This document shows positions 25,160 through 41,944 of a DNA stretch of 64,000 nucleotides, one piece after another. The notes under the pieces were generated by a model, which saw only the letters and a list, made by a program, of their open reading frames with translations, was not told the DNA's origin and ran no database searches. Source of the stretch: Pelosinus fermentans DSM 17108 (GTDB taxonomy: Bacteria; Bacillota; Negativicutes; DSM-13327); NCBI RefSeq assembly GCF_000271485.2, contig NZ_AKVN02000001.1, positions 3,807,501-3,871,500 of the forward strand, given 5' to 3'. Every line of letters starts with the position of its first letter. Within the stretch, counting starts at the first letter, position 1. Made by a program: the position numbers and the translations under genes.

Positions 25160-25380
25160 CTTTACGTAATCTCCTCCCTGTCACTCGCAGGTTAAGTGGT
25201 GATTGTTAGATAGGCAGTTCTCCTGACTTCGGATCATTGCTTTCCCACGCCTTCCCAAAGCCTAAGCTCCAGTGGCATTTATGCGAGATTGCTCCCCGTT
25301 ACAGTGGCGGGACCGTGCCGGCATTACACCGGTCTTCCCTATTAAGCCCCGAAGGGCACCTATCCCAATATTCTCTTGTA
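25160..25380 (-). ncRNA. Cobalamin riboswitch 1 (receptor proximal)
   Basis: Read on the minus strand: GGTGCCC...GGGCTTAATAGGGAA, then GGCACGGTCCCGCCACTGTAA, AATGCCACTGG, GGGAAGGCGTGGG and the B12 box GTCAGGAGAACTGCC, then a closing CCTGCGAG segment. All conserved blocks of the AdoCbl riboswitch are present in order. It controls the terminator at 25100-25126 and so the receptor operon. Confidence 0.95.
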
Positions 25381-25617: not shown

Positions 25618-25822
25618 ATCTTCTTCCTGTCTTTCGCAGGTCAAACGAAGATTGTCCGTACAGGTAGTTCTCCTGGCTCCAGTTCATCGTCAACCCATCC
25701 TTCCCGGAATGTCTACCTCATCCCAGTGGCTTATTAGAGTCGACTCCGTGTTACAGTGGCGACCGCACCGGCTTTTAACCGGACTTCCCTATTAAGCTCT
25801 TTGCAAGGCACCTGTACCCGTA
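25618..25822 (-). ncRNA. Cobalamin riboswitch 2
   Basis: Minus strand: CAGGTGCC...GAGCTTAATAGGGAA, GTGCGGTCGCCACTGTAA, AAGCCACTGGGA, CGGGAAGG and AGCCAGGAGAACTACCTG. One core base differs from copies 1, 3 and 4 (ACTACC for ACTGCC), and the GGTCGCC block is shorter by two bases. No T-tract terminator follows, only an ATCTCTG...CAGAGAT hairpin near the small ORF, so control may be translational. Confidence 0.92.
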
Positions 25823-25843
25823 TTGCTATATAACATTGCGTTA

Positions 25844-25944: not shown

Positions 25945-26148
25945 ATCCCCTCCCCATCTCTCGCAGGTAAAACGGTGATCGTTGTACAGGCAGTTCTCCT
26001 GGCTTAGGATCATTGCGCCTCCAAACCTTCCCAGAACGATTCGTTCCAGTGGCATATCTTGGATTTGCTCCCCATTACAGTGGCGGGACCGCGCCGGTCT
26101 TCAACCGGCTTTTCTATGAAGCCCTTACGGGCACCTGTACCTATATTT
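25945..26148 (-). ncRNA. Cobalamin riboswitch 3 (most upstream of the tandem set)
   Basis: Minus strand: ACAGGTGCCC...GGGCTTCATAGAAAA, GCGCGGTCCCGCCACTGTAA, ATGCCACTGGAA, TGGGAAGG and AGCCAGGAGAACTGCCTG. All core blocks are intact. It is followed by a terminator and then directly by riboswitch 2, with no ORF between. Confidence 0.94.
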
Positions 26149-26299
26149 AGTTTTTTCAAAGGATTTTCAAATAATTCTATTTATTTCATTATAATCCTAC
26201 GGGTAAAAATATACAACTATCTTTATGGGATAAAGAATTCACTCAGACATTTTTTGTAAAGAAATGTTTCATCTATTTTTCTACACTTTCATAATAAAG

Positions 26300-26742: not shown

Positions 26743-28167
26743 ATGTCCTTTGACGATACCTCAATGACTAGATTCTCACCTACAACTCCTAAGTTCCCAC
26801 TGTGCACATCTCCAGCAAATTGCTGTTGTATCGATACTACTAAGCCTACTGGAGCTACTGGCATAACTGGAGCTACTGGCGCTACGGGCGCAACGGGAGC
26901 TACGGGTGCAACCGGAGCTACAGGTGCTGCGGGTGCCGCTAGTGCTACGGGTGCTACTGGTGCTACCGGAGCTACTGGTGCAACGGGTGCTACAGGTGCT
27001 GCGGGTGCCGCTAGTGCTACGGGCGCAACAGGTGCTACCGGAGCTACGGGAGCAACGGGTGCTACAGGTGCTGCGGGTGCCGCTAGTGCTACGGGCGCAA
27101 CAGGTGCTACCGGAGCTACGGGAGCTACTGGCGATGCTGGTGCTACCGGTGCTACGGGAGCTACGGGAGCTACTGGCGATGCTGGCGCTACCGGTGCTAC
27201 GGGTGTTACTGGTGCTACCGGCACTACGGGAGATACGGGTGCAACCGGAGCTACGGGTGTTGCTGGAGCAACCGGCACTACGGGAGATACGGGTGCAACC
27301 GGAGCTACGGGTGTTGCTGGCGCTACCGGCGCTACGGGTGTTGCTGGCGCTACCGGCACTACAGGAGATACGGGTGCTACCGGCGCTACGGGTGTTGCTG
27401 GCGCTACTGGCACTACAGGAGATACGGGTGCTACCGGCGCTACGGGTGTTGCTGGCGCTACTGGCACTACAGGAGATACGGGTGCTACCGGCGCTACGGG
27501 TGTTGCTGGCGCTACTGGCGTTACGGGAGATACGGGTGCTACCGGAGCTACTGGAGCCACTGGTACCACTGGTGCTACCGGTGCTGTCGGAGCTACTGGA
27601 GCTACCGGCGATGCTGGCGCTACCGGCGCTACGGGCGCCACTGGTGCTGGAGCTATCATCCCCTTTGCCTCAGGCGGTCCTGTTACACTGACAACGATAG
27701 CTGGTGGCTTAGTTGGCACGACAAGTCTTGTTGGCTTTGGCTCTTCCGCGACTGGCATCAGCCTTCTTGGTGGAGTAATTGATCTCACAGGTACTGCTTT
27801 AGGACCAATTATTGACTTCTCATTCTCGGTTCCCCGCGATGGAGTCATTACGTCAATAGCAGCCTATTTTAGTAATACATTGGCATTGGCTCTTGTAGGC
27901 TCAACAATCACAATTACAGCAGAATTATATGAATCCACCACACCCGACAATACCTTCACTGCAATTCCAGGAGCCATCGTAACATTAGCACCAGCACTAA
28001 CAGGTGTCGTTGCCCTTGGAGCGATTAGCAATGGCATTATTACTGGCTTAAATATACCAGTAACTCCGGAAACTCGTCTGCTATTGGTATTCTCTGCAAC
28101 AGCAGCAGGGCTTACTTTAATCAATACTGTTACGGGTTATGCAAGTGCAGGCCTTAATATCGTTTAA
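26743..28167 (+). CDS. Collagen-like exosporium protein, BclB family
   Basis: 474 residues in three parts. The N-terminus (about 36 residues) has a Cys cluster ([13 protein letters not shown]). Residues 37-305 are uninterrupted Gly-X-Y triplets, mostly Gly-Ala-Thr with inserted GDA, GVA, GAA and GTT, which form a collagen-like triple helix. The C-terminal domain ([16 protein letters not shown]... [16 protein letters not shown] ... [10 protein letters not shown]) matches the trimerising C-terminal domain of BclB from Bacillus exosporium. Such proteins form a hair-like nap on spores, and the Thr residues are glycosylation sites in the Bacillus proteins. AGGAGG lies 11 bases before the ATG, and a sigma-K-like promoter and a strong terminator frame the gene. 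The repetitive DNA also leaves open a meaningless reverse frame. Confidence 0.9.
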
Positions 28168-28681: not shown

Positions 28682-28885
28682 CCCCTCCCCATCTCCCGCG
28701 GGTCAAGTGGTGACTGTCAAACAGGCAGTTCTCCTGGCTCTAGTTCATCACTTACCCAAACCTTCCCAAGATTGTTCATCCCAGTGGCTATTTTTTGGGT
28801 TCACTCCCTATTACAGTGGCGGGACCGCGCCGGCATTACACCGTTCTTCCCTATTAAGCCCTTGCGGGCACCATTTCAAAACTAT
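28682..28885 (-). ncRNA. Cobalamin riboswitch 4 (separate from the tandem set)
   Basis: Minus strand: GGTGCCCGCAAGGGCTTAA, GCGCGGTCCCGCCACTGTAA, ATAGCCACTGGGA, TTGGGAAGG and AGCCAGGAGAACTGCCTG, all intact. It points away from the exporter gene and toward the convergent bclB-like gene. The only frame after it is a 45-codon ORF. No clear terminator follows it. Confidence 0.94.
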
Positions 28886-28979
28886 TTAATTATATGATTA
28901 GACAATTTATTCTATAATTCGCGTAAATCATAACATTTTAGTTATAGCTATGTCAATTAGCTAGTAAGTGTATTTCGTT

Positions 28980-30217: not shown

Positions 30218-30258
30218 GAAAAGGACAGTCAGGATTTTTTATCCCGACTGCCCTTTTT
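30218..30258 (-). terminator. Terminator of the PTS-DUF1537-aldolase operon
   Basis: Stem AAAGGGCAGTCGGGA/TCCTGACTGTCCTTTT on the minus strand, ending in a T tract, about 25 bases after the aldolase stop codon. It is near symmetrical and could stop transcripts from both sides. Confidence 0.8.
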
Positions 30259-30282: not shown

Positions 30283-31131
30283 CTATTTGCATAACTCTTT
30301 CCAATTGTAAGCAAAGAACTTCAAATTTTCCCTCACCATACCAGTCACAGCATTCTTAGATGCTTGCGACATTTCTGCTAGATCCCAAGCGTCAATGTTT
30401 TTCTCATGGGTTTTCTGTGCGGCCTCCACAAAAGTTCGTCTAACCTCTGTACCAATGTTAATCTTTTTAATACCCAGCTTCACGCCCAAAGCAAACTGTT
30501 CTTGCGTCAAACCAGTGCCTCCATGAAGGACAAGGGGTACTGTCGCAATCTCATTGATTCTTTGCAAAAGATCAAAATCCAGCTTTGGTTCTCCTTTATA
30601 TAGGCCATGAGCATTGCCGATGGATACGGCCAACGCTTCTACTTTAGCCCCCGACAAAAACTGTGCTACATCTTCGGTACTGGCCATTTTAGCGATTTTA
30701 ACTTCTTCACCATCTTCCAACCCTGCCAAAGCGCCAACTTCTGCTTCTACTGATACACCAAGACTATGTGCTACTTCTGCGACTTTATTAGTGATCTCAA
30801 TGTTCTTTTCTATACTAAGGTGAGAACCATCAATCATGACGGCACTAAATCCTAGTTTCATAGCCTTTAAGCAAGTCCCGTAATCTTTGGCATGGTCCAA
30901 AAACACACATACGTTAGCGCTCGAGCGTTTAGCCAAGGATACCATGATCTCGCCAATATATTCATTCCCCGGTTTGTTAAGTATCGGAGCACCGATCATA
31001 GCAATTACGGGCAAATTAGTCTCCTCAGCTGCACTGATAATTCCTTGTGCGGTAAAAAGATCGTAGGTACTAAAGGCGCCAACGGCACCATCATGAACTT
31101 TCATAATTTCTTCCAGTGTTACTAAAGACAT
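30283..31131 (-). CDS. Class II ketose-bisphosphate aldolase
   Basis: 282-residue zinc aldolase of the FbaA/GatY/KbaY family, cleaving a ketose 1,6-bisphosphate to dihydroxyacetone phosphate and an aldehyde phosphate. Zinc and catalytic motifs are visible: VFLDHAKDYG (Asp, His), VEAEVGALAG (Glu), GNAHGLYKG (His) and PLVLHGGTGL (His), then NIGTEVRR for phosphate binding. It is the last gene of the operon starting with the PRD regulator at 37660, so it probably acts on the sugar of that pathway rather than in general glycolysis (inference). The start has AAGGAGG upstream. Confidence 0.92.
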   Translation of the reverse strand: MSLVTLEEIMKVHDGAVGAFSTYDLFTAQGIISAAEETNLPVIAMIGAPILNKPGNEYIGEIMVSLAKRSSANVCVFLDHAKDYGTCLKAMKLGFSAVMIDGSHLSIEKNIEITNKVAEVAHSLGVSVEAEVGALAGLEDGEEVKIAKMASTEDVAQFLSGAKVEALAVSIGNAHGLYKGEPKLDFDLLQRINEIATVPLVLHGGTGLTQEQFALGVKLGIKKINIGTEVRRTFVEAAQKTHEKNIDAWDLAEMSQASKNAVTGMVRENLKFFAYNWKELCK

Positions 31132-31201
31132 TTTTTCCTCCTTGTTGGCTGCTTATCAGCAGCCATTCTGATAACGAAAAATTTCATCTGTTCAGCTTAT
31201 A

Positions 31202-31861
31202 CTATATTCCCAGAATCTGCTTTACTCTAAGTATCCCTGACTTCGGACTGGTAAGAAGAGGTTTTTGAATATGCTTCAATTGGGGCAGTAAGACAATCAT
31301 GCTGCCTTGGGCAAGGACAATCACGTCACTTTCTGCTTCCACCTTTTCAATTTCAGCTAGTACCAGACGATTATGCTTTTCCTTATCATTTTCCTTAATT
31401 AACACATCTAAAGCCCCATCCACTAAACATCTTTTAATGGTGATCTGCTTATTCAGCTTTTCAGCAGCCCTTTCGATCAATCTCACACTGGGACCCATTG
31501 TGGACGCAACGGTAGCAATAACTGAAATCTTTCCCCCAATTTGGACTGCTTCTACTGCCATCGCTTCATCGACTTTAATATAGGGTATATTGATCATATT
31601 TCTGGCAACATCAACAGCTTCCCCAACGGAAGAACACTGATTTAAGATTGCATCTGCACCAAGAGCCTCTGCCTGTATGGCATATGTGCAAACTCTCCTT
31701 ACAATTCCCGGGGTAATGGCTCCATTAGCCATCACTTCAGAAAGTAAGCTGTCGTCTACAATATTTACGATTTGGACTTGCGGCATAATTTCCTTACATA
31801 AGTCTTTCAATGCCTCAACAGATACAAAACTGGTATGAATCACTGCTACTTTCTTTGACAT
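31202..31861 (-). CDS. Aspartate/glutamate/hydantoin racemase-like protein
   Basis: 219 residues. NQCSSVGEAVD carries the first catalytic Cys position of the Asp/Glu racemase superfamily. SVIATVASTMGPSVRLIE matches the phosphate/carboxylate-binding T-x-x-S-T region, while the second Cys may lie in IKRCLVDGAL. ATG at 31861 has GGAG 8 bases upstream; the earlier ATG at 31867 is too close to it. It lies 12 bases after the DUF1537 kinase. In this operon it more likely isomerises or epimerises a sugar acid intermediate than an amino acid (inference). Confidence 0.82.
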   Translation of the reverse strand: MSKKVAVIHTSFVSVEALKDLCKEIMPQVQIVNIVDDSLLSEVMANGAITPGIVRRVCTYAIQAEALGADAILNQCSSVGEAVDVARNMINIPYIKVDEAMAVEAVQIGGKISVIATVASTMGPSVRLIERAAEKLNKQITIKRCLVDGALDVLIKENDKEKHNRLVLAEIEKVEAESDVIVLAQGSMIVLLPQLKHIQKPLLTSPKSGILRVKQILGI

Positions 31862-31873
31862 AACCATCTCTCC

Positions 31874-33316
31874 TTATGCATCCTTCTTATCTAACATTTC
31901 TACAACTTCTCTTAAGGTCGTACTCTTCCCCACATTTCCAGGAAAAATAATATAAGGCATTCCCGGAAATCTGCTTTCTTTCCCCGTAATCCAGACAGGG
32001 ACACCAGGCTTAATTTGTCCTGCAACTAATGCCTTCTTGACCTTAAGCCCCTTTACTCCGACATCGCTTGAGGTAATTCCCCCCTTAGCGATAATATAAT
32101 TTGGTCTTACAGTCAGTTGCCGGGCTATACTAGTAATCCCATCTGAAATCTTTACTGCAATCTTTAATTCTTCCTCTTTGTTGTCATTGCCCACATCCAG
32201 CCGTTCTCTTCTGGTATAAACGACTACCGTTTGTCCTGCACGAATGCACTTTTCACAGAGGAGCACCACTCTTTTAACTTCTATAGCCAGCTCAGAGGGA
32301 TGTAATACAAGATGCTGATTGAATTCCACGAATTCGATGCCGTGACTGTTTTTTAATTCTGCCAGCTGTTCTGTGGTCTTCTTGACATGAGAGCCAACAA
32401 TCACAAGACCTCCATGCTGGCTCTCCTTTTGCATTACATCCTTTCGCAGAAGAAGTTCTTTATCTGCTATATTACCAATGACTTTAGGGAAAGCAGCAGC
32501 TGTGCGGAATATAAAATACCTGCCAGATTGCAGAGCTTTCAGCAATGCAATCGTAAAAATTTTAACGTCAACATTGTCTATTGCATCTACAATAACCTTG
32601 TGAAAGCCGTTTACTTTTAGCAGCTGCTGAACAATACTATCCATCTTGATTTCCCCGATAGCCTGGATAGGTATGTATTCCATGTCTGCTGCCTTGTATT
32701 CCCCATTGCATTTCTCCTCAACCCATTTTCCAAGATGAGATTGGGCATATCCAAAGGTCTTGTCTTTAGCAAATTCAGTTTCACCAACAGGTATCAGATA
32801 ATCATCTTCTTGTATATAATGCATACCGTCAAGGGTAAATCGTCCTCCTTCCTGAAAAAAAGGAAGTATGATTTCTCCGTGAAAACGGATATCGGAGTTG
32901 GACTCGATTGTTTCTTTTATGATTTGGGTTTCTAAAGGATAATGTCCACGCAAGGTAGAGTCACTGCGACTGATGATAATAAACTCTTTTTTACATTTTT
33001 TTGCTGCCATCATAATCTGCAGTGCAATTTCGCGATGAATCTGTGCTGTCTCTTTCCGTGTTAGTCCTCTGGAATTAGTGAGTATGAAAAACATAGAGCT
33101 TTCTTCCTGAAAACCCTCTTCGATACTCGCTGCTGACCAATCTGTATAAACAGAGACACCATGAACGGTCTGTACACCTGTCGGATCATCGTCCAGCACA
33201 ACTATTTTTCCATGAAAGTGCTGTAAAGCACTCTGAAGTTTCGTATCTATATCACTTCTATTTACCTGATTAGCGGCACCCAGGACTTCCTTTATGTGTA
33301 TCTTGCCTTCACGCAT
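31874..33316 (-). CDS. Four-carbon acid sugar kinase family protein (DUF1537)
   Basis: 480-residue ATP-dependent kinase of the DUF1537 (OtnK/DtnK/LtnK) family, known to phosphorylate threonate, erythronate and 2-oxotetronate. The N-terminal substrate domain has KIVVLDDDPTGVQTVHGV and ISRSDSTLRGHYPLE. The C-terminal nucleotide-binding domain has YIIAKGGITSSDVGVKGL, GVPVWI and FPGNVGKSTTL. It is coupled here to a PTS and a bisphosphate aldolase instead of the usual decarboxylase/PdxA2 partners, so its substrate may already be phosphorylated. AAGGAG lies before the ATG. Confidence 0.9.
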   Translation of the reverse strand: MREGKIHIKEVLGAANQVNRSDIDTKLQSALQHFHGKIVVLDDDPTGVQTVHGVSVYTDWSAASIEEGFQEESSMFFILTNSRGLTRKETAQIHREIALQIMMAAKKCKKEFIIISRSDSTLRGHYPLETQIIKETIESNSDIRFHGEIILPFFQEGGRFTLDGMHYIQEDDYLIPVGETEFAKDKTFGYAQSHLGKWVEEKCNGEYKAADMEYIPIQAIGEIKMDSIVQQLLKVNGFHKVIVDAIDNVDVKIFTIALLKALQSGRYFIFRTAAAFPKVIGNIADKELLLRKDVMQKESQHGGLVIVGSHVKKTTEQLAELKNSHGIEFVEFNQHLVLHPSELAIEVKRVVLLCEKCIRAGQTVVVYTRRERLDVGNDNKEEELKIAVKISDGITSIARQLTVRPNYIIAKGGITSSDVGVKGLKVKKALVAGQIKPGVPVWITGKESRFPGMPYIIFPGNVGKSTTLREVVEMLDKKDA

Positions 33317-33414
33317 CTTACTAAATCTCCTTGTCCAATAATCGATTTAGAATTAGGAGACTACATAAGAGAATCCATGATCTAACCGTAAATCCGCCTT
33401 TATGAATCTCTCTA

Positions 33415-34485
33415 TTAGCCAATCTTAATTTCCAAATCGTCTAAATTCACATTTTCTTCCGTATTACTTTCTTCGTCCCCTTCAACCCTGGTAGGCTTTA
33501 ACAGTGTCAGTATCGTAGCTGTCACAACTGTACCAATCCCCAATGCCAGCAGGAACATGAGTGGGTTGTCCATTAATGGAACTACGAAGATTCCTCCATG
33601 AGGCACTGGTGAAGCTGTTCCCCACATCAATGCCAAACCGCCTGCAACAGCAGAACCAATGGAACATGCAGGTATCACTCTAAGCGGGTCGCTTGCCGCA
33701 AAGGGAAGAACGCCTTCTGTAATATAGCATAACCCTAGTGGAAAAGTAGCTTTGGCAGCTTCCACTTCTGCCTTGCTGTATTTTTTCTTTGATAATAAAA
33801 CCGACAATGAGACCCCTAGAGGAGGTACCATCCCTCCAATAATCATGGCTGATGCAGGACCAAAGATCTTATCAACCATTAAACCCTTTGCGAACAAACC
33901 AGCCGTTTTATTAACAGGCCCTCCCATATCAAAACCCATCATGGCTCCAATAATCGCACCTAACAAAAACTTTGATCCCCCTTGCATAGACTTCATCCAT
34001 ACCAGAATTCCATTCTGAAAAGCTGCGATTGGCTCTCCCAATAAACCAATCATGATTAATCCCATAATGACTGAAGATAACAGCGGTAAAACCATGATTG
34101 GCATAAGGCCTTTTAAGCTATTAGGCACTTTTAAATAATTCTTTAAGAAAAGAACTAAATACCCAACCAGTAAAGCCCCCACAACACCGCCGATAAATCC
34201 GGCCTTAATGTTATTCGCGATGAACCCCATAATTAATCCGGGAACAATTCCTGGGCGATCAGCGATTGAATATGCAATCCCAGCAGCAAGCACAGGTACA
34301 ACAAAGACCATTGCAGCCTTTCCGATTTCATTAATCATCCATGGGATTGTATTGGTTTGGTCTCCGACTAAAGCACCTCCAAAGACTTTTGCTATCGCCA
34401 TACACAGCCCACCAACTACTACAATAGGAATCATATAAGACACGCCTGTCATCAAATGCTGTTTAATAGAGAATCCTTTAAACAT
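33415..34485 (-). CDS. PTS fructose-type enzyme IIC
   Basis: 356-residue membrane permease of the fructose PTS family with about nine helices. Family motifs are GVSYMIPIVVVGGLCMAIA near the start, AGFIGGVVGALLVGYLV, GFDMGGPVNKTAG and PLGLCYITEGVLPFAASDP in the substrate/gating region, and ASPVPHGGIFV. It pairs with the separate EIIB and EIIA encoded directly upstream. The sugar is unknown, and the downstream kinase and aldolase suggest it is not plain fructose. Confidence 0.93.
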   Translation of the reverse strand: MFKGFSIKQHLMTGVSYMIPIVVVGGLCMAIAKVFGGALVGDQTNTIPWMINEIGKAAMVFVVPVLAAGIAYSIADRPGIVPGLIMGFIANNIKAGFIGGVVGALLVGYLVLFLKNYLKVPNSLKGLMPIMVLPLLSSVIMGLIMIGLLGEPIAAFQNGILVWMKSMQGGSKFLLGAIIGAMMGFDMGGPVNKTAGLFAKGLMVDKIFGPASAMIIGGMVPPLGVSLSVLLSKKKYSKAEVEAAKATFPLGLCYITEGVLPFAASDPLRVIPACSIGSAVAGGLALMWGTASPVPHGGIFVVPLMDNPLMFLLALGIGTVVTATILTLLKPTRVEGDEESNTEENVNLDDLEIKIG

Positions 34486-34524
34486 CTAGATCCCTCCATA
34501 ATTTAATTTTTTAAAAAAGAATGA

Positions 34525-34839
34525 TTAGCTCTTCAATTTTTCTTCGATTTTTTGGATGAGAGTTTTTGGTGATTTAATAGCTGTCTGCATCGGTACATCA
34601 ATTACCTTTTTCCCTTTAAATCTCTCTTTCCCCCCTATATTAATATCGGCTGCAATAATGACAATATCGGCTTTTTCAATATCCTCTTTCGTCAGTTCAT
34701 CTTCAGTACCAATCGTTCCCTGGGTCTCGATTTTCACATTGTGCCCCAGTTCTTTTGCTGCATTGACCAATTTTTCTTTCGCAATATACGTATGAGCAAT
34801 TCCCGCAGTACATGCCGTAATTCCAATAATATTCATCAT
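34525..34839 (-). CDS. PTS fructose-type enzyme IIB
   Basis: 104-residue soluble phosphocarrier with its active cysteine in GITACTAGIAHTYIA, the signature of fructose-family EIIB, and ETQGTIGTEDELT downstream. It transfers phosphate from EIIA to the incoming sugar. It stands as a free-standing domain between the EIIA and EIIC genes. Confidence 0.93.
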   Translation of the reverse strand: MMNIIGITACTAGIAHTYIAKEKLVNAAKELGHNVKIETQGTIGTEDELTKEDIEKADIVIIAADINIGGKERFKGKKVIDVPMQTAIKSPKTLIQKIEEKLKS

Positions 34840-34863
34840 TACACACTCCTTATTGTGATTGTA

Positions 34864-35316
34864 TTAATTTTGTTTAAAAATAGAGAGTACATCCTTTGCC
34901 TCTTCTGCCTCTAGCAATGCTTCACATATCTTTTTATTGGCTAATGCTCCTGCTACTTTTGCCATTAATTTTACATGCTGATTGTTCTTGCTTTTATTGT
35001 CCACTGCAAATAAAATAATCAGCTTTACGGGCTTGTCATCTATGGTTTCCCAGGCAATACCTTTATCAACCCTTCCAACTGCTATGCAGGTTTTTACAAC
35101 ACTATCGGATTTACCATGAGGAATTGCAATAAAATCACCAATTCCAGTCATCCCTTGGGCTTCCCGCAGATAAACATCGTTAATAAATTCCTCCTTAGAG
35201 CGTATTGATCCATCTTTAAATAAAAGTTCTGACAGCACTTCAATAGCACCCTTTTTGTCATCCACTTGCAAATATAAATCTATCGCATTTAGATTTATGA
35301 CATCAGTAACATCCAT
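34864..35316 (-). CDS. PTS fructose-type enzyme IIA
   Basis: About 150 residues with the EIIA_2 active site GIGDFIAIPHGKSDSV (phospho-His), then IAVGRVDKGIAWETIDDKPV. Start at ATG 35316 with a GGTGG site upstream; a TTG two codons earlier is the alternative. It takes phosphate from HPr, probably the one encoded 44 bases upstream. Confidence 0.92.
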   Translation of the reverse strand: MDVTDVINLNAIDLYLQVDDKKGAIEVLSELLFKDGSIRSKEEFINDVYLREAQGMTGIGDFIAIPHGKSDSVVKTCIAVGRVDKGIAWETIDDKPVKLIILFAVDNKSKNNQHVKLMAKVAGALANKKICEALLEAEEAKDVLSIFKQN

Positions 35317-35359
35317 AATCAAAATCCACCTTATCTATCTATTTTGTTTCCCTGTTTCA

Positions 35360-35620
35360 TCACACACATTCTTCCATTAGAAGCAGCTGCAAAGAGTTCA
35401 TTGCTTCAGACTCATCTTCACCATCAATGATAATTGTTATCTTCTCACCTTGCACAGCGCCCATACTTAAGACGGAAATCATGCTTTTTGCACTATACGT
35501 CTTGTTGTCTTTTATTACATCAATTTTTGCTTTGAATTTTGACGCTTGATTAACAAATTTCATTGCCGGCCTGGCGTGCAAACCTTCCGCACTTTGAATG
35601 ATCATATCGACTTGTTTCAT
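35360..35620 (-). CDS. HPr-family phosphocarrier protein
   Basis: 86 residues. SAEGLHARPAMKFVNQA contains the phospho-His15 site, and YSAKSMISVLSMGAVQG contains the Ser46-like regulatory site, so it could act both in transport and in catabolite control. A dedicated HPr inside a sugar operon is additional to the general ptsH expected elsewhere. It lies 9 bases after the PRD regulator. AGGAGG precedes the ATG. Confidence 0.92.
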   Translation of the reverse strand: MKQVDMIIQSAEGLHARPAMKFVNQASKFKAKIDVIKDNKTYSAKSMISVLSMGAVQGEKITIIIDGEDESEAMNSLQLLLMEECV

Positions 35621-35629
35621 ATATTCCTC

Positions 35630-37660
35630 CTAAACGCAATTCCTTAAGATGTCATAAATTTGCCCCGCAGTCTGGCTTCCCCTGATTTTATCTTTTACGA
35701 TAACGTCGTCTAACAATAAAGCAAATTTCGCATAAAAGTTCTTGATCATTTTTTTATTGATTTCATCCTTCTTTAAATCAAAAGCTAGTAAGAATACGAT
35801 ATCTACCTGTTCATTGTGCTTCCATTTAATTGGCTTTTTCAATTTGGCTACTGCTATCGTTGAATCTAAAATATACTGCTGACTACCATGAGGGATTGCA
35901 ATCCCCTGGCCTACTACCGTTGAAGTAGCATCTTCTCTTTCCAGTACAGATTGTATAAATTCCTTACTAACCTTTTCTTTTGCCACTAACCTTTCAGCTA
36001 AATATTCAATGACCTCTTTTTTGCCTCCAACATCGAGATTCACAAAAATTAGATCTTCATCGTATAAAAAATGACTTACTTCACCCTTTTGCAGTGCCGT
36101 ATCACGTATTTTTATTTTCTTATATTGCAATATTTGCTCTTTTATTTTATGAATGTCCTCAGGCTTAAGTATGGAATTAATATATATTACAGGTTTTTCT
36201 TCTTCGGACAGCGGAATGGTGGATAGAGCAAAATCATAATTTGACTTGTTCATCGATTTGTAATCATATAGTGATAATGCATCATCAACCTCTAACCCTG
36301 GAATTGCCCTTCTAATCTGCTGTGATAGCAGCTGGGATATTCCAACTCCATGATTACAAACGACTACTGTCCGCATTTTATGATTGATTCGTTCTAAAGC
36401 AGTCTCCACATAGATGGCTAAAAAAGCAATCTCATCCTCCCCTACCCTCACATTGAAATATTTTTCAAACAAAATGCTCGATGCCCAGGCTGCTCCAAAA
36501 ACGCGGGGATAATTTTCTTTGATCTGTTGTAGGAAGGGATTTTCTGTATGGATGTTAAATTTCAGCCTGTATAGTGCAGGGCGCAGATACAGTATCAGAC
36601 TATTAACAAATCCTTCATCAGAACGCAAGTCCACATTCAATATTGTACCGATCAATTGAATTAACTCATTTATAAATGGACGAATGATGTCTATATCTTT
36701 AGCCATTTCTTCTTGTTTTTTTTCATTAGCAATATAACTAATCTCTGTTATCAATAGATAGGCTGCAAAATATAAAATATCATTTTCTGCGAAACTCACT
36801 TGAAATTCTTGTCCAATAGCCTTTGCCAAGGTTTCAGCCAACTTATATTCCCGTAATCCTAAAATCTCATTTGCCTGCTCCGTTGGTATCACAACAGACT
36901 TATTTTTTCGTTTCCTCATGGTACCTAACGATACATGCAGCAGTAACCTTAGATAGGAATCATATGCAAAAACAATCTGCTCTGCTGTTTCCAAACTGCT
37001 CAATATCTTCTCTATTTTTTCAACATCAAAACTTTCTAAGATTTGCTTCATTATAAAGAGATCTGACGAATCGACTCTGTTTTTTAATTGACTTTTTTTA
37101 TCTGCAGCTTCATTGATATCCCCTATATCGGCACACAGCATTCGATAAAAACCATCAACAGCTCTTCTCCAATCCATCTCTGAATAGCAAATCTCAATAC
37201 CAGAATGCTGTCTTCTAGCAATTGTGATGCCAAACTGCTTGAACCATTCCTCTATCTCCTTTAATAAATTAATAACCGAAGAACGACTGGTGTATAATCC
37301 ATCTGCAATCTCCTGCATGGTAATATATTTCTGATTGGCAAAGAGTAATTTTTTAATGATAAATACCTTTCTGTTTTTTATGCTGACGTCCTCACTGATC
37401 AAAGATTGTTTGTTGTTTATGAGCAGTTCGTCTAATTTTTTAATGTTATTGGAATCAAATTTCAAATAGACTCCAAAGCGGGGCTTCTTAATAATTTCAC
37501 CCAAATCCATTTTCTGCAGAACATTGTTAATGTTAATAATATGGTTTCGAATGGTTTTATCAGAAACATTCAATTTTTTAGCAATCGTATCCACTGTTAT
37601 AAATTTGCTGGTAGCAAGTAACTCTTTTACAATTTCTTTATCCCTGGAATTCAAATGCAT
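35630..37660 (-). CDS. PRD-containing PTS-controlled transcriptional regulator
   Basis: 676 residues: winged helix at the N-terminus (RDKEIVKELLATSKFITVD, KKLNVSDKTIRNHI), a second HTH/Mga-like region (YITMQEIADGLYTSRSSVIN), two PRDs (around residues 210-410), an EIIB-gat-like domain (RTVVVCNHGVGISQLLSQQI, with Cys) and a full EIIA_2 domain (STVVGQGIAIPHGSQQYI, with phospho-His). It is the first gene of the operon and likely activates it when its PTS domains are dephosphorylated. Distinct from the MtlR at 8-10 kb, where the EIIA motif is degraded. Confidence 0.9.
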   Translation of the reverse strand: MHLNSRDKEIVKELLATSKFITVDTIAKKLNVSDKTIRNHIININNVLQKMDLGEIIKKPRFGVYLKFDSNNIKKLDELLINNKQSLISEDVSIKNRKVFIIKKLLFANQKYITMQEIADGLYTSRSSVINLLKEIEEWFKQFGITIARRQHSGIEICYSEMDWRRAVDGFYRMLCADIGDINEAADKKSQLKNRVDSSDLFIMKQILESFDVEKIEKILSSLETAEQIVFAYDSYLRLLLHVSLGTMRKRKNKSVVIPTEQANEILGLREYKLAETLAKAIGQEFQVSFAENDILYFAAYLLITEISYIANEKKQEEMAKDIDIIRPFINELIQLIGTILNVDLRSDEGFVNSLILYLRPALYRLKFNIHTENPFLQQIKENYPRVFGAAWASSILFEKYFNVRVGEDEIAFLAIYVETALERINHKMRTVVVCNHGVGISQLLSQQIRRAIPGLEVDDALSLYDYKSMNKSNYDFALSTIPLSEEEKPVIYINSILKPEDIHKIKEQILQYKKIKIRDTALQKGEVSHFLYDEDLIFVNLDVGGKKEVIEYLAERLVAKEKVSKEFIQSVLEREDATSTVVGQGIAIPHGSQQYILDSTIAVAKLKKPIKWKHNEQVDIVFLLAFDLKKDEINKKMIKNFYAKFALLLDDVIVKDKIRGSQTAGQIYDILRNCV

Positions 37661-37811: not shown

Positions 37812-37852
37812 CTACCCCCAATCGTAGAATCAAGAAACTACGACTGGGGGTA
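37812..37852. terminator. Hairpin between the PRD operon and the second PTS gene
   Basis: TACCCCCA-TCGTAG stem with CTACGA-TGGGGGTA around AATCAAGAAA. No strong T tract. It lies just beyond the stop at 37880 of the leftward EIICB gene and so may end the ptsG transcript. Confidence 0.5.
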
Positions 37853-37879: not shown

Positions 37880-39706
37880 TTAATCCATACACTGCATAAT
37901 AATATCTTCTCCTGCTGTTACTTCCTCAGCGGGAGTTATGTGTATCTCTTTTCCTCCAGTAATGTTAATCCTTACAATACTCTCTGCATGCTCCCTAGGA
38001 TTACTTAGGGATAGAATCTTCTGTCCAACAGTAATCTCTTGTCCCTCACTGACCAAAAACTGCAATGCAGCGCTTAAAGCGGGAGATTCTAATTCCACCT
38101 GAATCATCAATTGATAATGTGGCTCAACCCTCATCAGTAATGATGCTGGATTTGAACATACTTGTGTCACTCTGCCGGCAGCAGGGGCAAGACAACTATC
38201 ATCCCTTGTGGCAATTGCTACCGTATAATCCGGGATTCGACCTCCTTCTTGAATCAGTCTGCCACTTACCGGCGCATTAATTCGTACATCCTGTATAGGA
38301 GTCGGAACATATGCCTCTGTCAGTTGCTCCTCAACAAAATCCTTCCCAATCATCTTGGAAATTTCTTCTTTTAAACCGTCGGACTGCGTCCCAAAGATAA
38401 ATTGAAAATTAGTCCCCATTTCCATGATTCCGACTGCACCTAAAGCTGGAAAATCCTGTTTTCTTACTGACTCTCGTTGTTTTACAGAAACTCGCAGCCG
38501 TGAAATACATGCATCCAAAGCCTTAATATTCTCTGCTCCACCCAATGCTTTCACTATGTTATATGCCCTACGGAAAGTATCTGGCTCATGATCAGGGAGA
38601 GATTCATCTTCCCGGCCTGGTGTTTTTAATTGAAAATGATTGATAGCTAGATGAAAAACAATAAAATAGAGTGCACCGATACTGATTCCAACCGGCCATA
38701 TCCACAGCTGATTGTGCCCATATTTATACGACAATAAATAATCAATGAAGGATGCCGAAAAGGTAAATCCCAAATGGATATCTAACCAGCTGGTCATAAG
38801 CCCGGAGACACCAGCCATTAGTACATGAAATATGAATAAAGACGGCGCAACAAAAATAAAAGCAAATTCGATGGGTTCGGTAATCCCTGTCAGAAAGGAA
38901 GTTAAAGCACCGCTAATCATCAATCCAGCAACAACTTTTCGCCGTTCTGGTCTGGCGTTGTAGTATATTGCAAAGGCTGCTGCCGGCAGACCAAACATCA
39001 TAATCGGAAATTCACTAGCCATAAATATGCCTGCCGTTGGATCACCGGCAAAATAGCGGTTAAAATCTCCGCGTATTAAGGTGCCGTCAGGAGTAATAAA
39101 ATGCCCAAATTCATACAAGAAGGCAGGATAGTACACATGATGCAAACCGATGGGTATCAGTAAACGTTTTCCGGCAGCAAACAGTGCCGGACCGACACTA
39201 GAATTCACTGCTAAGTGACCAATGCCATCAATGCCTAATTGGATTACAGGCCAGACAATCTGCAGCAGCAGCGCCATCACCACACCTGCAACAGCTGTGG
39301 CAATCGGTACAAAGCGCTTTCCGGCAAAAAATCCTAACACATGAGGCAGCTTCATTTGATGAAACTGCCGATATAGAACAGCTGCAATAAGGCCCATTAC
39401 AATACCAGAAAAAACGCCCATATCAATACTCGGATTTACAGACTTTAAGACTGCCAAAAAAATTAGATGACCAATTACAGCCGCTAAAGCGGCAACTGCT
39501 TGCCCTTGAGAAAAACCAATCGCCACCCCTACTGCAAACAACAACGGCAAATTAGCAAATACTGCCATGCCAGCATCCCGTACTGCAGGCATATTCAATA
39601 AATCCTTTTCTCCAAACCGGAATAAAAGTCCGGCTGCCGGTAAAACAGATACAGGCAGCATCAAAGATTGTCCGATTTGCTGCAGGTAGCGGAATATATC
39701 TTTCAC
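37880..39706 (-). CDS. PTS glucose/GlcNAc-type EIICB with a degenerate EIIA domain
   Basis: About 608 residues. EIIC covers residues 1-360 (IGQSLMLPVSVLPAAGLLFRFG, FLTGITEPIEFAFIFVAPS), followed by an EIIB domain (NIKALDACISRLRVSVKQ, with its phospho-Cys). A C-terminal EIIA-like domain (NAPVSGRLIQEGGRIPDYTV onward) lacks the HFGIDTV-x-L-x-GEGF active-site block, reading YQLMIQVELESPALSAAL instead, so the phospho-His is missing. It must receive phosphate from another EIIA, perhaps that of the neighbouring PtsG. The start is taken as GTG 39706 with AAGGAG upstream. It lies downstream of ptsG, with a 15-bp hairpin between. Confidence 0.85.
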   Translation of the reverse strand: MKDIFRYLQQIGQSLMLPVSVLPAAGLLFRFGEKDLLNMPAVRDAGMAVFANLPLLFAVGVAIGFSQGQAVAALAAVIGHLIFLAVLKSVNPSIDMGVFSGIVMGLIAAVLYRQFHQMKLPHVLGFFAGKRFVPIATAVAGVVMALLLQIVWPVIQLGIDGIGHLAVNSSVGPALFAAGKRLLIPIGLHHVYYPAFLYEFGHFITPDGTLIRGDFNRYFAGDPTAGIFMASEFPIMMFGLPAAAFAIYYNARPERRKVVAGLMISGALTSFLTGITEPIEFAFIFVAPSLFIFHVLMAGVSGLMTSWLDIHLGFTFSASFIDYLLSYKYGHNQLWIWPVGISIGALYFIVFHLAINHFQLKTPGREDESLPDHEPDTFRRAYNIVKALGGAENIKALDACISRLRVSVKQRESVRKQDFPALGAVGIMEMGTNFQFIFGTQSDGLKEEISKMIGKDFVEEQLTEAYVPTPIQDVRINAPVSGRLIQEGGRIPDYTVAIATRDDSCLAPAAGRVTQVCSNPASLLMRVEPHYQLMIQVELESPALSAALQFLVSEGQEITVGQKILSLSNPREHAESIVRINITGGKEIHITPAEEVTAGEDIIMQCMD

Positions 39707-39766
39707 CTGACTCCTTCCTCCTTTTATGTAGTCAGTCTCTCGAAAAAACAATCCTATCCCCTCTAA

Positions 39767-39799
39767 TGTAAAGGCACCAGAACATCTGGTGCCTTTACA
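39767..39799 (-). terminator. Perfect 15-bp hairpin between ptsG and the second EIICB gene
   Basis: TGTAAAGGCACCAGA-ACA-TCTGGTGCCTTTACA. There is no following T run, so it may stabilise the ptsG mRNA end or lower expression of the next gene rather than fully terminate. Confidence 0.55.
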
Positions 39800-39821
39800 C
39801 ATAAACGATACATTACGGTAC

Positions 39822-41861
39822 TTATTGTACTTTAATATTCATACGTTCTCCACGTTTTACCATTTTTCCTTCCTCTACGATAATCAACCTGCCTGCCAAA
39901 TTAGTAAACACTATCGGAGTAATAACAGATGGTACTTTCCCTTTTATTGATTCCAAATCTGCTTTAAAGATCCTTTGGCCTGCTTTCACTCGATCCCCTT
40001 GATTGACAAACAAAGTAAATCCTTCACCTTTTAGATGCACCGTATCAATCCCAAAATGTACAATCAATTCTAAACCGCTGTCAGCAGTAATTCCCACAGC
40101 ATGCTTGCTTTCCAGCACACTGGTTATCGTGCCGTCAACAGGGGATATAACTTCGCCATTACTAGGTTCAATAGCAAAACCGTCACCCACTATTTTTTGT
40201 GAAAACACTTGATCAGGAACCTGGGTAATAGCAAGTACCTTTCCATCTAATGGAGAAATAAACGCATGGATGGAATCGATTATTGTACTAGCCGCAGTTT
40301 CTGCTGCTTGTTGTATTTCAGCAGGAGTTACAACTCCTTGGGGTATCTCTTTTCCTGCCATAATATCTTGCATTTGCGTTTTTAGTATATCCGATTTTGG
40401 TCCAAAGATAATTTGCAGGTTATCACCGATTACCATAACGCCGGATGCACCCAGTTTTTTGAGTCGATCTTGATTGACCTCACTCTTATTTTTTACACTG
40501 ACACGTAAGCGAGTAATACAAGCATCCAGATGTGTCAGATTATTTTTACCGCCTAACGCCTGTAAAACATCTGCTGCTAAACTAGAAGCTGGAGCATTGT
40601 ATACTTCTTCTGTTCCTGTATCCTCTTCCCGCCCTGGAGTTTTTAAATTCCAAGTTCGAATCGCAAAACGGAATCCGAAATAATAGATGACTGAAAAAAC
40701 CAAACCTACGGGAATTACTAACCACCAATCCGTACGATTGGGAATAACGCCAAACAATAAATAATCAATTACACCCCCAGAAAAGGTCATACCGATTTTA
40801 ACATTCAAAATCTGCATCAGCATAAAGGATAAACCAGCAAAAATAGTATGAATACCAAATAGTACTGGCGCAACGAACAAGAAGGAAAATTCAATGGGTT
40901 CAGTAATGCCTGTTAAAAAAGATGTGAGTGCCGCCGAAAGCATAATACCGCCAATTGCCGCTTTCTTCTCGGGTTTTGCCTCATGATAGATGGCAAGAGC
41001 TGCAGCTGGCAGGCCAAACATCATGAATGGGAACTTTCCCGTCATGAATGTACCAGCGGTAAAGGCTACGCCATCTTTGAGCTGAGCAAAGAAGATGCTT
41101 TGATCACCGTTAACAATTTGTCCGCTTTTACTTACATACTCACCAAACTGATACCAAAAAGGATTATAGAAAATATGATGAAGACCAAAAGGAATCAGTG
41201 CGCGTTCAATAATACCAAAGATAAAAGCAGCCAATATCTTATTCGAATCAATCATATTTCGTGAAAACAAGGTTAATCCCAATTGAATCGGCGGCCAGAC
41301 AAAGGTCATGGCAACACCTAAAACAAGGGCCGCAGCTGCTGTTACGATCGGCACAAAACGTTTCCCTGCAAAAAAGCCAAGATACGAAGGCAGCTCAATA
41401 TTGTAAAACCGTTTATATACTTGTGCTGCTAATATACCCACAATGATACCACCAAATACACCCGTTTGCAGTGTAGGAATCCCCAGTACACTGCTGTAGG
41501 CGGGATTGCCAGCAATCATGTCCGGAGTAATCCCTGTGACGATCCCCATAGTGACATTCATAATCAGAAAACCAACAATTGCTGCAAGCCCGGCAACACC
41601 TTCGCCGCCAGATAAACCTACTGCTACACCTACTGCAAACAGCAAGGACAGATTGCCAAAAATAATGCCGCCGGCCTGTTCCATAATTTGAGCCAGAGCA
41701 TGGATCACGTGATTATCAAGCAGAGGCATAATACTAATTGCCGCTGGATTTTGTAATGCATTACCAAAAGCTAATAAAAGACCTGCTGCTGGCAATAAAG
41801 CGACTGGCAGCATTAGCGCTCTGCCTACCTGTTGTAAAATACCAAAGGATTTCTTTATCAT
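39822..41861 (-). CDS. ptsG: PTS glucose-specific enzyme IICBA
   Basis: About 679 residues, very close in layout to Bacillus PtsG: EIIC (GRALMLPVALLPAAGLLLAFG, GVAGLAAIVGFLIMNVTMG, ALIPFGLHHIFYNPFWY, FLTGITEPIEFSFLFVAPV), linker NLKTPGREED, EIIB (LTHLDACITRLRVSVKNK, with Cys) and EIIA (GLELIVHFGIDTVHLKGEGF, with the phospho-His). It imports and phosphorylates glucose. ATG 41861 follows GGAGAGGGG. The upstream leader carries a RAT sequence overlapping a terminator, and glcT lies next to it, so expression is by glucose-dependent antitermination. Confidence 0.95.
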   Translation of the reverse strand: MIKKSFGILQQVGRALMLPVALLPAAGLLLAFGNALQNPAAISIMPLLDNHVIHALAQIMEQAGGIIFGNLSLLFAVGVAVGLSGGEGVAGLAAIVGFLIMNVTMGIVTGITPDMIAGNPAYSSVLGIPTLQTGVFGGIIVGILAAQVYKRFYNIELPSYLGFFAGKRFVPIVTAAAALVLGVAMTFVWPPIQLGLTLFSRNMIDSNKILAAFIFGIIERALIPFGLHHIFYNPFWYQFGEYVSKSGQIVNGDQSIFFAQLKDGVAFTAGTFMTGKFPFMMFGLPAAALAIYHEAKPEKKAAIGGIMLSAALTSFLTGITEPIEFSFLFVAPVLFGIHTIFAGLSFMLMQILNVKIGMTFSGGVIDYLLFGVIPNRTDWWLVIPVGLVFSVIYYFGFRFAIRTWNLKTPGREEDTGTEEVYNAPASSLAADVLQALGGKNNLTHLDACITRLRVSVKNKSEVNQDRLKKLGASGVMVIGDNLQIIFGPKSDILKTQMQDIMAGKEIPQGVVTPAEIQQAAETAASTIIDSIHAFISPLDGKVLAITQVPDQVFSQKIVGDGFAIEPSNGEVISPVDGTITSVLESKHAVGITADSGLELIVHFGIDTVHLKGEGFTLFVNQGDRVKAGQRIFKADLESIKGKVPSVITPIVFTNLAGRLIIVEEGKMVKRGERMNIKVQ

Positions 41862-41944
41862 GATAATTCCCCTCTCCTTTATCAATCTATTATAAAATCT
41901 AAGCCTCCCCAGTTTTCCTTTCGGATCACCTCCTTATATACATA

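Follow-up and report, generated by a model that had tools for sequence, protein, structure and literature searches.

Related systems

To our knowledge, the characterised members of the DUF1537 kinase family act on free sugar acids, most of which have four carbons. The L-threonate pathway of E. coli, encoded by ygbJKLMN (LtnD, OtnK, OtnC, OtnI and YgbN), combines a DUF1537 kinase with a class II enzyme cleaving a C–C bond and an isomerase-type protein, and in this it resembles the operon described here from Pelosinus fermentans DSM 17108, a diderm member of the Firmicutes in the class Negativicutes. However, it has no PTS, and its aldolase, isomerase and dehydrogenase belong to other families; none of the eight Pelosinus genes is a homologue of LtnD, OtnC or OtnI, and the Pelosinus kinase falls well short of the OtnK cut-off. 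Nearer in sequence are the GarR-DUF1537-GntP clusters of Bacillota, which use the same kinase subfamily (50–60% identity), often with a class II FBP-type aldolase, and two of which (L061 and L102) also encode a racemase-like protein 53–56% identical to that of Pelosinus. These clusters differ in that the PTS is replaced by a GarR-type reductase and by a GntP permease, which does not phosphorylate, and their aldolase comes from another lineage, without Arg231. A biochemical study of such clusters was not found in the literature searched.

The galactitol, tagatose and fructose routes likewise take up their substrate through a PTS and then use a kinase and a class II DHAP aldolase; their kinases are not DUF1537 proteins and there is no racemase-like protein. 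In the fructose-type PTS loci L161–L166, one or two class II aldolases are found, as in the PTS–aldolase pairing of Pelosinus, but the kinase and the racemase-like protein are absent and the aldolases fall in other clades. The closest relative of the Pelosinus EIIC (72–73% identity) lies in L161, where the order regulator-HPr-IIA-IIB-IIC is the same and is followed by aldolase and EI; a PTS of this kind may thus need no partner enzyme other than an aldolase. Sulfo-EMP2 (SqiK/SqiA) is also similar, in that a PF01116 aldolase frees DHAP from a 1-phosphate that has an anion at its distal end, and the PDB entries nearest to the Pelosinus aldolase, 8q57 and 8q58, are presumably SqiA; it differs in its sulfosugar genes, which the operon lacks. 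The Sulfo-EMP2 kinase belongs to a different family, PF00365 (PMC9594981).

Organization of the operon

The window, that is, the whole stretch of 64,000 nucleotides that was analysed, contains eight ORFs arranged head to tail on the minus strand at positions 30283-37660. The gene content, positions and operon structure given in the initial annotation agree with the ORFs, gaps and flanking hairpins, and its eight family assignments with Pfam/NCBIfam profiles. The features, from the regulator end, are as follows:

37813-37852, minus strand: hairpin upstream of the regulator gene (15-bp stem), probably the terminator of the preceding gene
35630..37660, minus strand: PRD-type transcriptional activator (HTH_11, Mga-like HTH, two PRDs, EIIB-like region, C-terminal EIIA_2)
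35360..35620, minus strand: dedicated HPr (profile match; His15 and Ser46 present)
34864..35322, minus strand: fructose-type EIIA, TTG start (PF00359 and TIGR00848 above cut-off; motif AIPHG)
34525..34839, minus strand: fructose-type EIIB (PF02302 and TIGR00829 above cut-off; ACTAG cysteine)
33415..34485, minus strand: fructose-type EIIC (TIGR01427, 325 bits against a cut-off of 158)
31874..33316, minus strand: DUF1537 (SBD_N + NBD_C) kinase of the 480-aa subfamily (profiles and predicted fold)
31202..31867, minus strand: single-Cys member of the Asp/Glu racemase fold family (PF01177, alignment and fold)
30283..31131, minus strand: class II DHAP-type aldolase (PF01116, 255 against a cut-off of 25.5)
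30223-30253, minus strand: intrinsic terminator-like hairpin 3′ of the aldolase gene (13-bp stem, then T-rich sequence, -21.2 kcal/mol)

The intergenic gaps are 6–98 bp, with Shine-Dalgarno-like sequences, and the gap of 98 bp separates the EIIC and kinase genes. Since hairpins bound both ends, the eight genes form a self-contained unit, within which no terminator-like site was found between the PTS genes and the enzyme genes. The GC content is 0.35–0.39 in the PTS genes, apart from EIIC at 0.43, and 0.41–0.43 in the enzyme genes. A relative of the same genus (G004) has the same gene set at 95–99% identity, divided over two contig ends (L041 and L069) with the break between the kinase and racemase genes.

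All PTS phosphorylation sites are present as motifs across the PTS proteins of the operon. The PRD protein, with CNHGVG in its EIIB-like region and AIPHG in EIIA_2, is probably the PTS-controlled regulator of the eight genes, which the host might not express. Other parts of the host genome encode at least four PEP-utiliser ORFs of EI size (581–606 aa), as well as GarR paralogues and glycerate kinases.

The three enzymes

Both kinase domain profiles score above cut-off (PF07005 156 bits, PF17042 125 bits), and the predicted fold (pLDDT 87) matches the DUF1537 structures 3dqq (Z 30.4) and 5dmh (Z 29.2); a sequence search against the PDB at E 0.001 gave no match, nor did a profile search. The kinase stays below the named equivalogs, with 58.7 bits against 450 for D-threonate kinase and 36.6 against 350 for 3-oxo-tetronate kinase. 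It is nested in a 62-row clade of GarR/GntP-linked kinases (SH-aLRT 98) and agrees with 110 relatives at 132 of the 140 columns conserved among them, the other eight positions being mild deviations or lying outside the signature motifs. By family it is a putative ATP-dependent sugar-acid kinase, and its relatives, judging by their transporter type, probably use free acids.

The racemase-like protein matches PF01177 (54.9 against a cut-off of 31) and, in a fold search, 3s81 (Z 22.6), while a sequence search against the PDB at E 0.001 gave no match. Within its family Cys78 is invariant (38/38). This residue corresponds to MurI Cys92, the position of MurI Cys204 is occupied by Gln187, and AQxS is invariant in a 28-row alignment. 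With glutamine in place of the second cysteine, chemistry other than two-base racemisation is likely; that is to say, the name racemase first given to this protein holds for its fold and family and not for a two-Cys mechanism. Some other PF01177 members, YgeA among them, also lack one of the two cysteines. The protein groups with those of L061 and L102 (support 90/79 and 94/89), whose clusters consist of GntP, GarR, kinase, racemase-like protein and aldolase. Since such proteins are found beside other DUF1537 kinases too, with an AraD/OtnC-type aldolase in L065, L071, L118 and L172 and with an isopropylmalate-type dehydrogenase in Ilyobacter, they belong to DUF1537 pathways generally.

The aldolase has a complete set of metal and catalytic residues (D79, H80, E129, H175 and H203, aligned with D82, H83, E132, H180 and H208 of KbaY), and it remains below the NCBIfam equivalog cut-off for class II FBP/TBP aldolases (best 243 bits against 423). 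Its nearest solved structures are named ketose-bisphosphate and tagatose-1,6-bisphosphate aldolase. Arg231, in TEVR, aligns with TDLR of the T. aquaticus and H. pylori FBP aldolases and with TELR of 8q58; GatY/KbaY have Lys there, and a positive charge is absent in all 45 other kinase-linked aldolases. In FBP and TBP aldolases the distal (C6) phosphate is presumably served by an Arg or Lys following the NxxT[ED] motif and by the arginine of DPR/DLR, the second of which the Pelosinus protein lacks. We take 8q57 and 8q58 to be sulfofructose-1-phosphate aldolases; since the distal group there is a sulfonate, Arg231 may be a sign of any anion at that end. In the free tree the aldolase is an isolated branch, and its substrate therefore cannot be read from relatives. 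AU tests rejected neither the PTS-linked placements (p 0.17 and 0.08), nor the kinase-linked one (p 0.06), nor a clade with GatY/KbaY (p-AU 0.50). An arrival of the aldolase together with the PTS was considered: the free tree places the protein outside the PTS-linked clades, but given the AU tests it may have come from either side.

Gene neighbourhoods

Relatives of the kinase subfamily, 50–60% identical, are common in Bacillota, and more than 100 close ones were among the loci fetched. Of 105 distinct kinase loci, 76 have a GarR-type reductase nearby, 63 a GntP permease and 39 a class II aldolase. The pairing of a DUF1537 kinase with a class II aldolase is thus not new but common in the subfamily, together with reductase and permease. 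The neighbouring dehydrogenase was also considered as a marker of the L-threonate pathway, but it reaches 180 against 350 for L-threonate dehydrogenase and 424.8 bits against a cut-off of 397 for GarR. Thirteen of the kinase loci adjoin a DtnK-like kinase, and most of those PdxA as well.

The trio of racemase-like protein, kinase and aldolase is not new either: members of Bacillota, Deinococcota and Actinomycetota have it, accompanied by GntP, BASS or sugar-ABC transporters, the last in Deinococcus and Rhodococcus. A Deinococcus SDR tried as D-erythronate dehydrogenase was rejected (22 bits against a cut-off of 325). One point of the initial annotation that holds is that a PTS seldom lies beside DUF1537: apart from the same-genus copy, none of about 100 subfamily kinase loci has a PTS nearby, and in 279 Bacillota genomes the same is true of 65 other DUF1537 loci. 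No paper describing the eight-gene set was found in the literature searched. Salmonella STM3780-85, considered as a possible precedent for PTS, DUF1537 and aldolase, was dropped, the literature confirming only an aldolase and 'unknown sugars'.

Possible pathways

Since the trio is known with other transporters, a PTS is unusual beside it, and the nearest PTS relative is kinase-free, we tentatively read the operon as a hybrid in which a module of known type is combined with PTS uptake: a self-regulated fructose-family PTS would be joined to a kinase/racemase-like/aldolase sugar-acid module of the kind fed in relatives by GntP, BASS, TRAP or ABC transporters, with the aldolase acting before the kinase. 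The compound imported by the PTS would be a ketose-like sugar derivative carrying an acid group at one end, and it would be phosphorylated beside the keto group; the aldolase, with Arg231 holding the distal anion, would release DHAP and leave a short sugar-acid aldehyde. The racemase-like enzyme might then shift a proton or carbonyl on the acid fragment, whose terminal hydroxyl the kinase would phosphorylate, a reaction of the type carried out by characterised members. The product would join glycolysis either as a glycerate phosphate or, once decarboxylated, as DHAP, and the pathway probably ends in DHAP. We favour this order since the kinase has largely kept the conserved positions of subfamily members with non-phosphorylating transporters. 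The usual reading of GntP-fed kinase/aldolase modules, which runs counter to it, places the kinase before the aldolase.

The order first proposed for the locus, in which the racemase-like enzyme isomerises the PTS product, the DUF1537 kinase phosphorylates it again and the aldolase splits the bisphosphate, is possible though rather unlikely. The gene order fits it, as do Arg231, which suits a distal anion and matches the FBP aldolases and 8q58 where other kinase-linked aldolases lack a positive charge, the unrejected GatY/KbaY clade and the bisphosphate names of the nearest structures; on the other hand, the kinase gives no sign of a new pocket compared with relatives on non-phosphorylating transporters, the aldolase lacks the DPR arginine, and the presumed SqiA identity of 8q57/8q58 leaves Arg231 as a mark of any distal anion. 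Two triose- or acid-phosphates would result, as in the tagatose and fructose-1-phosphate routes, with DUF1537 replacing the PfkB kinase. The fuller version, running from a PTS-made sugar or sugar-acid phosphate with the one-Cys protein specifically as isomerase, is unlikely.

It is equally improbable that the operon follows a four-carbon acid route, with an OtnK-type 3-oxo-tetronate kinase, the FBP-type aldolase standing for the decarboxylase OtnC, the racemase-like protein for the isomerase OtnI, and the PTS supplying a precursor of the C4 keto acid. The functional layout of ygbJKLMN (dehydrogenase, kinase, OtnC, OtnI, transporter), the thirteen loci beside DtnK-like kinases, the best fold matches of the kinase and the occurrence of the racemase-like protein with OtnC-type aldolases, where Pelosinus has the FBP type, all point this way; yet the dehydrogenase of the relatives scores as GarR, the kinase is far under the OtnK and DtnK cut-offs, and PTS entry would already phosphorylate a free C4 acid. 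A recent joining of PTS and enzyme module without a single linear pathway, the aldolase cleaving the PTS product and the other two enzymes serving another substrate, is very doubtful: the gene set occurs in two related genomes only, the PTS genes are lower in GC and 98 bp separate EIIC from the kinase, but the two parts share their orientation, no terminator-like site separates them, and the second genome preserves the arrangement.

Significance

The joining of a PTS to the kinase/racemase-like/aldolase module is a rare exact combination, the relatives using ordinary transporters. DUF1537 is a large kinase family, and in three phyla its 480-aa subfamily recurs together with a class II aldolase and the one-Cys protein of the racemase fold. 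If the bisphosphate order were true, no earlier DUF1537 kinase would, as far as we know, have been shown to use a phosphorylated sugar as substrate. The range of compounds that a fructose-type PTS takes up and phosphorylates is limited, so the PTS version narrows down the possible substrates, and it makes the substrate of the whole 480-aa subfamily testable.

Organization of the Operon

The eight-gene head-to-tail operon proposed in the initial annotation was borne out, since eight minus-strand ORFs run from 37660 down to 30283 with matching family assignments (the window being G000:C1:3807501-3871500 of the host genome).

37660-30283, minus strand: in 5′→3′ order, PRD/EIIA regulator, HPr, EIIA, EIIB, EIIC, DUF1537 protein (kinase), Asp/Glu-racemase-family protein, class II aldolase
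37813-37852 and 30223-30253: bounding hairpins

The intergenic gaps are 6-98 bp, a Shine-Dalgarno-like sequence precedes every start, and no terminator-like site was found between the genes. All PTS phosphorylation sites were found by inspection of the sequence, and at least four enzyme I-sized PEP-utiliser ORFs exist in the host genome. The set recurs at 95-99% identity in another genome of this genus, where it is split across two contig ends (L041 and L069) exactly between the kinase and racemase-like genes. Other features of the window are as follows:

25196-25378, 25646-25830 and 25972-26153, minus strand: three tandem cobalamin riboswitches immediately preceding a TonB-dependent-receptor-like gene (22130-25000, minus strand); no ORF reaching 150 aa lies between them
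28707-28890, minus strand: fourth cobalamin riboswitch, not followed directly by any evident gene on its own strand; its downstream region holds a collagen-like repeat ORF on the opposite strand (26743-28167)
37880-39802: glucose/NAG-type PTS EIICBA, EIIA domain under the Pfam cut-off (23.2 vs 27.2), lacking the HFGIDT histidine motif that is present in the neighbour 39822-41885

Rarity of PTS Genes beside DUF1537 Kinases

Relatives of the kinase were sought in 300 class genomes and a scan of named genomes, which gave more than 100 close relatives. Within six same-strand genes of 105 distinct kinase loci, a 3-HIBDH-family reductase (76), a GntP permease (63), a class II aldolase (39) and a racemase-like protein (11) were counted, all lower bounds owing to a greedy ORF picker (the GarR gene missed in the GntP-type cluster L102 was recovered by tblastn). 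Two representative reductases both scored above cut-off with the NCBIfam model PRK11559, 2-hydroxy-3-oxopropionate (tartronate semialdehyde) reductase, and far below it with the model for L-threonate dehydrogenase. The independent annotation of Priestia and Ligilactobacillus plasmids reads GarR-DUF1537-gluconate symporter, and in Lachnospiraceae-type loci the kinase adjoins a second DUF1537 kinase (D-threonate type) and PdxA.

By the same lower-bound count, a PTS stood near the kinase at 1/105 loci, namely the same-genus copy. In a wider scan for PF07005 in 279 Bacillota genomes, 68 neighbourhoods were read, and none of the PTS component types queried lay within six genes of the kinases labelled in 65 of these neighbourhoods. 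The unusual part of the operon is the PTS. The Salmonella STM3780-85 cluster, an aldolase-containing group of genes entered under 'unknown sugars', may be a precedent for the PTS-DUF1537 set; no paper describing the gene set was found in literature covering few subscription journals.

Origin of the Parts

In the tree, the kinase is a lone branch within the GarR/GntP-linked clade, agreeing with its 110 relatives at 132/140 conserved columns. By fold, its model (pLDDT 87) resembles known DUF1537 structures, 3dqq at Z 30.4 and 5dmh at Z 29.2, while sequence searches of the PDB gave no match. The racemase-like protein clusters with those of L061 and L102, both GntP-GarR clusters; modelled with pLDDT 94, it adopts the Asp/Glu racemase fold (3s81 at Z 22.6) and keeps one of two catalytic cysteines, Cys78 being invariant and Gln187 occupying the position of MurI Cys204. 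EIIC is 72-73% identical to that of L161, where an aldolase and enzyme I come after regulator-HPr-IIA-IIB-IIC and neither kinase nor racemase is present. In PTS relatives further removed, there are one or two aldolases. A second Fru-type PTS of the host (L164, G000:C1:4704000-4723900; regulator, IIA, IIB, IIC) precedes two class II aldolases, with no kinase, and L165 and L166 are similar. The aldolase is an isolated branch, and AU tests reject none of the PTS-linked, kinase-linked and GatY/KbaY placements. From these affinities, the operon has the appearance of a PTS combined with the kinase-racemase pair of a GntP-fed module, together with an isolated-branch aldolase.

Aldolase Residues and Order of Reactions

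In the alignment, the aldolase retains every metal and catalytic residue and has Arg231 after NxxT[ED]. Arg is also found at this position in 8q58 and in the FBP aldolases of T. aquaticus and H. pylori, whereas GatY/KbaY have Lys, YdjI has Cys, and 0/45 other kinase-linked aldolases have a positive charge. Neither the window aldolase nor 8q58 has the DPR arginine seen in FBP/TBP aldolases. The structures 8q57/8q58 are sulfofructose-1-phosphate aldolases (SqiA). SqiA is a PF01116 enzyme whose products are DHAP and sulfolactaldehyde (PMC9594981). Arg231 is accordingly read as a contact for a distal anion, which may be phosphate, carboxylate or sulfonate. That DHAP is one product of the operon's aldolase has a firm basis in the aldolase family.

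As for the order, the aldolase would act first and the kinase would then phosphorylate the released acid fragment. This order is preferred by a small margin, since the kinase shows no apparent departure from relatives that take up their substrates unphosphorylated. The route of the initial annotation, in which the kinase adds a second phosphate to the PTS product and the aldolase splits the bisphosphate, is slightly less favoured: the aldolase evidence points mildly toward it, but the seemingly unaltered kinase speaks against it. If, with the aldolase first, the acid fragment were tartronate semialdehyde, it could be processed by the GarR paralogues and glycerate kinases present elsewhere in the host genome.

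The Enzyme Module in Other Settings

The trio of kinase, class II aldolase and racemase-like protein occurs in several Negativicutes with BASS transporter, HbpS-like, GntR and BKACE genes (L057-L060, L066-L068), with GntP and GarR (L061, L102), and with sugar-ABC transporters on Deinococcus and Rhodococcus plasmids. In Negativicutes these seven genes make up a conserved cluster (L056-L060, L066-L068). A LarA homologue lies near the cluster in L060. Members of the racemase-like family also adjoin DUF1537 kinases of other kinds: in L065, L071, L118 and L172 an AraD/OtnC-type class II aldolase accompanies them, and in Ilyobacter they neighbour an isopropylmalate-type dehydrogenase. In L065, L071 and L118, an OtnC-type aldolase, a one-Cys racemase-fold protein and a DUF1537 kinase are conserved, with an isopropylmalate-type dehydrogenase adjoining. 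Since the trio and the racemase-like/DUF1537 pairs recur with other transporters and neighbours, the enzyme module is not peculiar to this operon. In summary, the families and the module are of known kinds; the PTS-fed form is new as a variant, and among the genomes scanned it turned up in two, both of a single genus.
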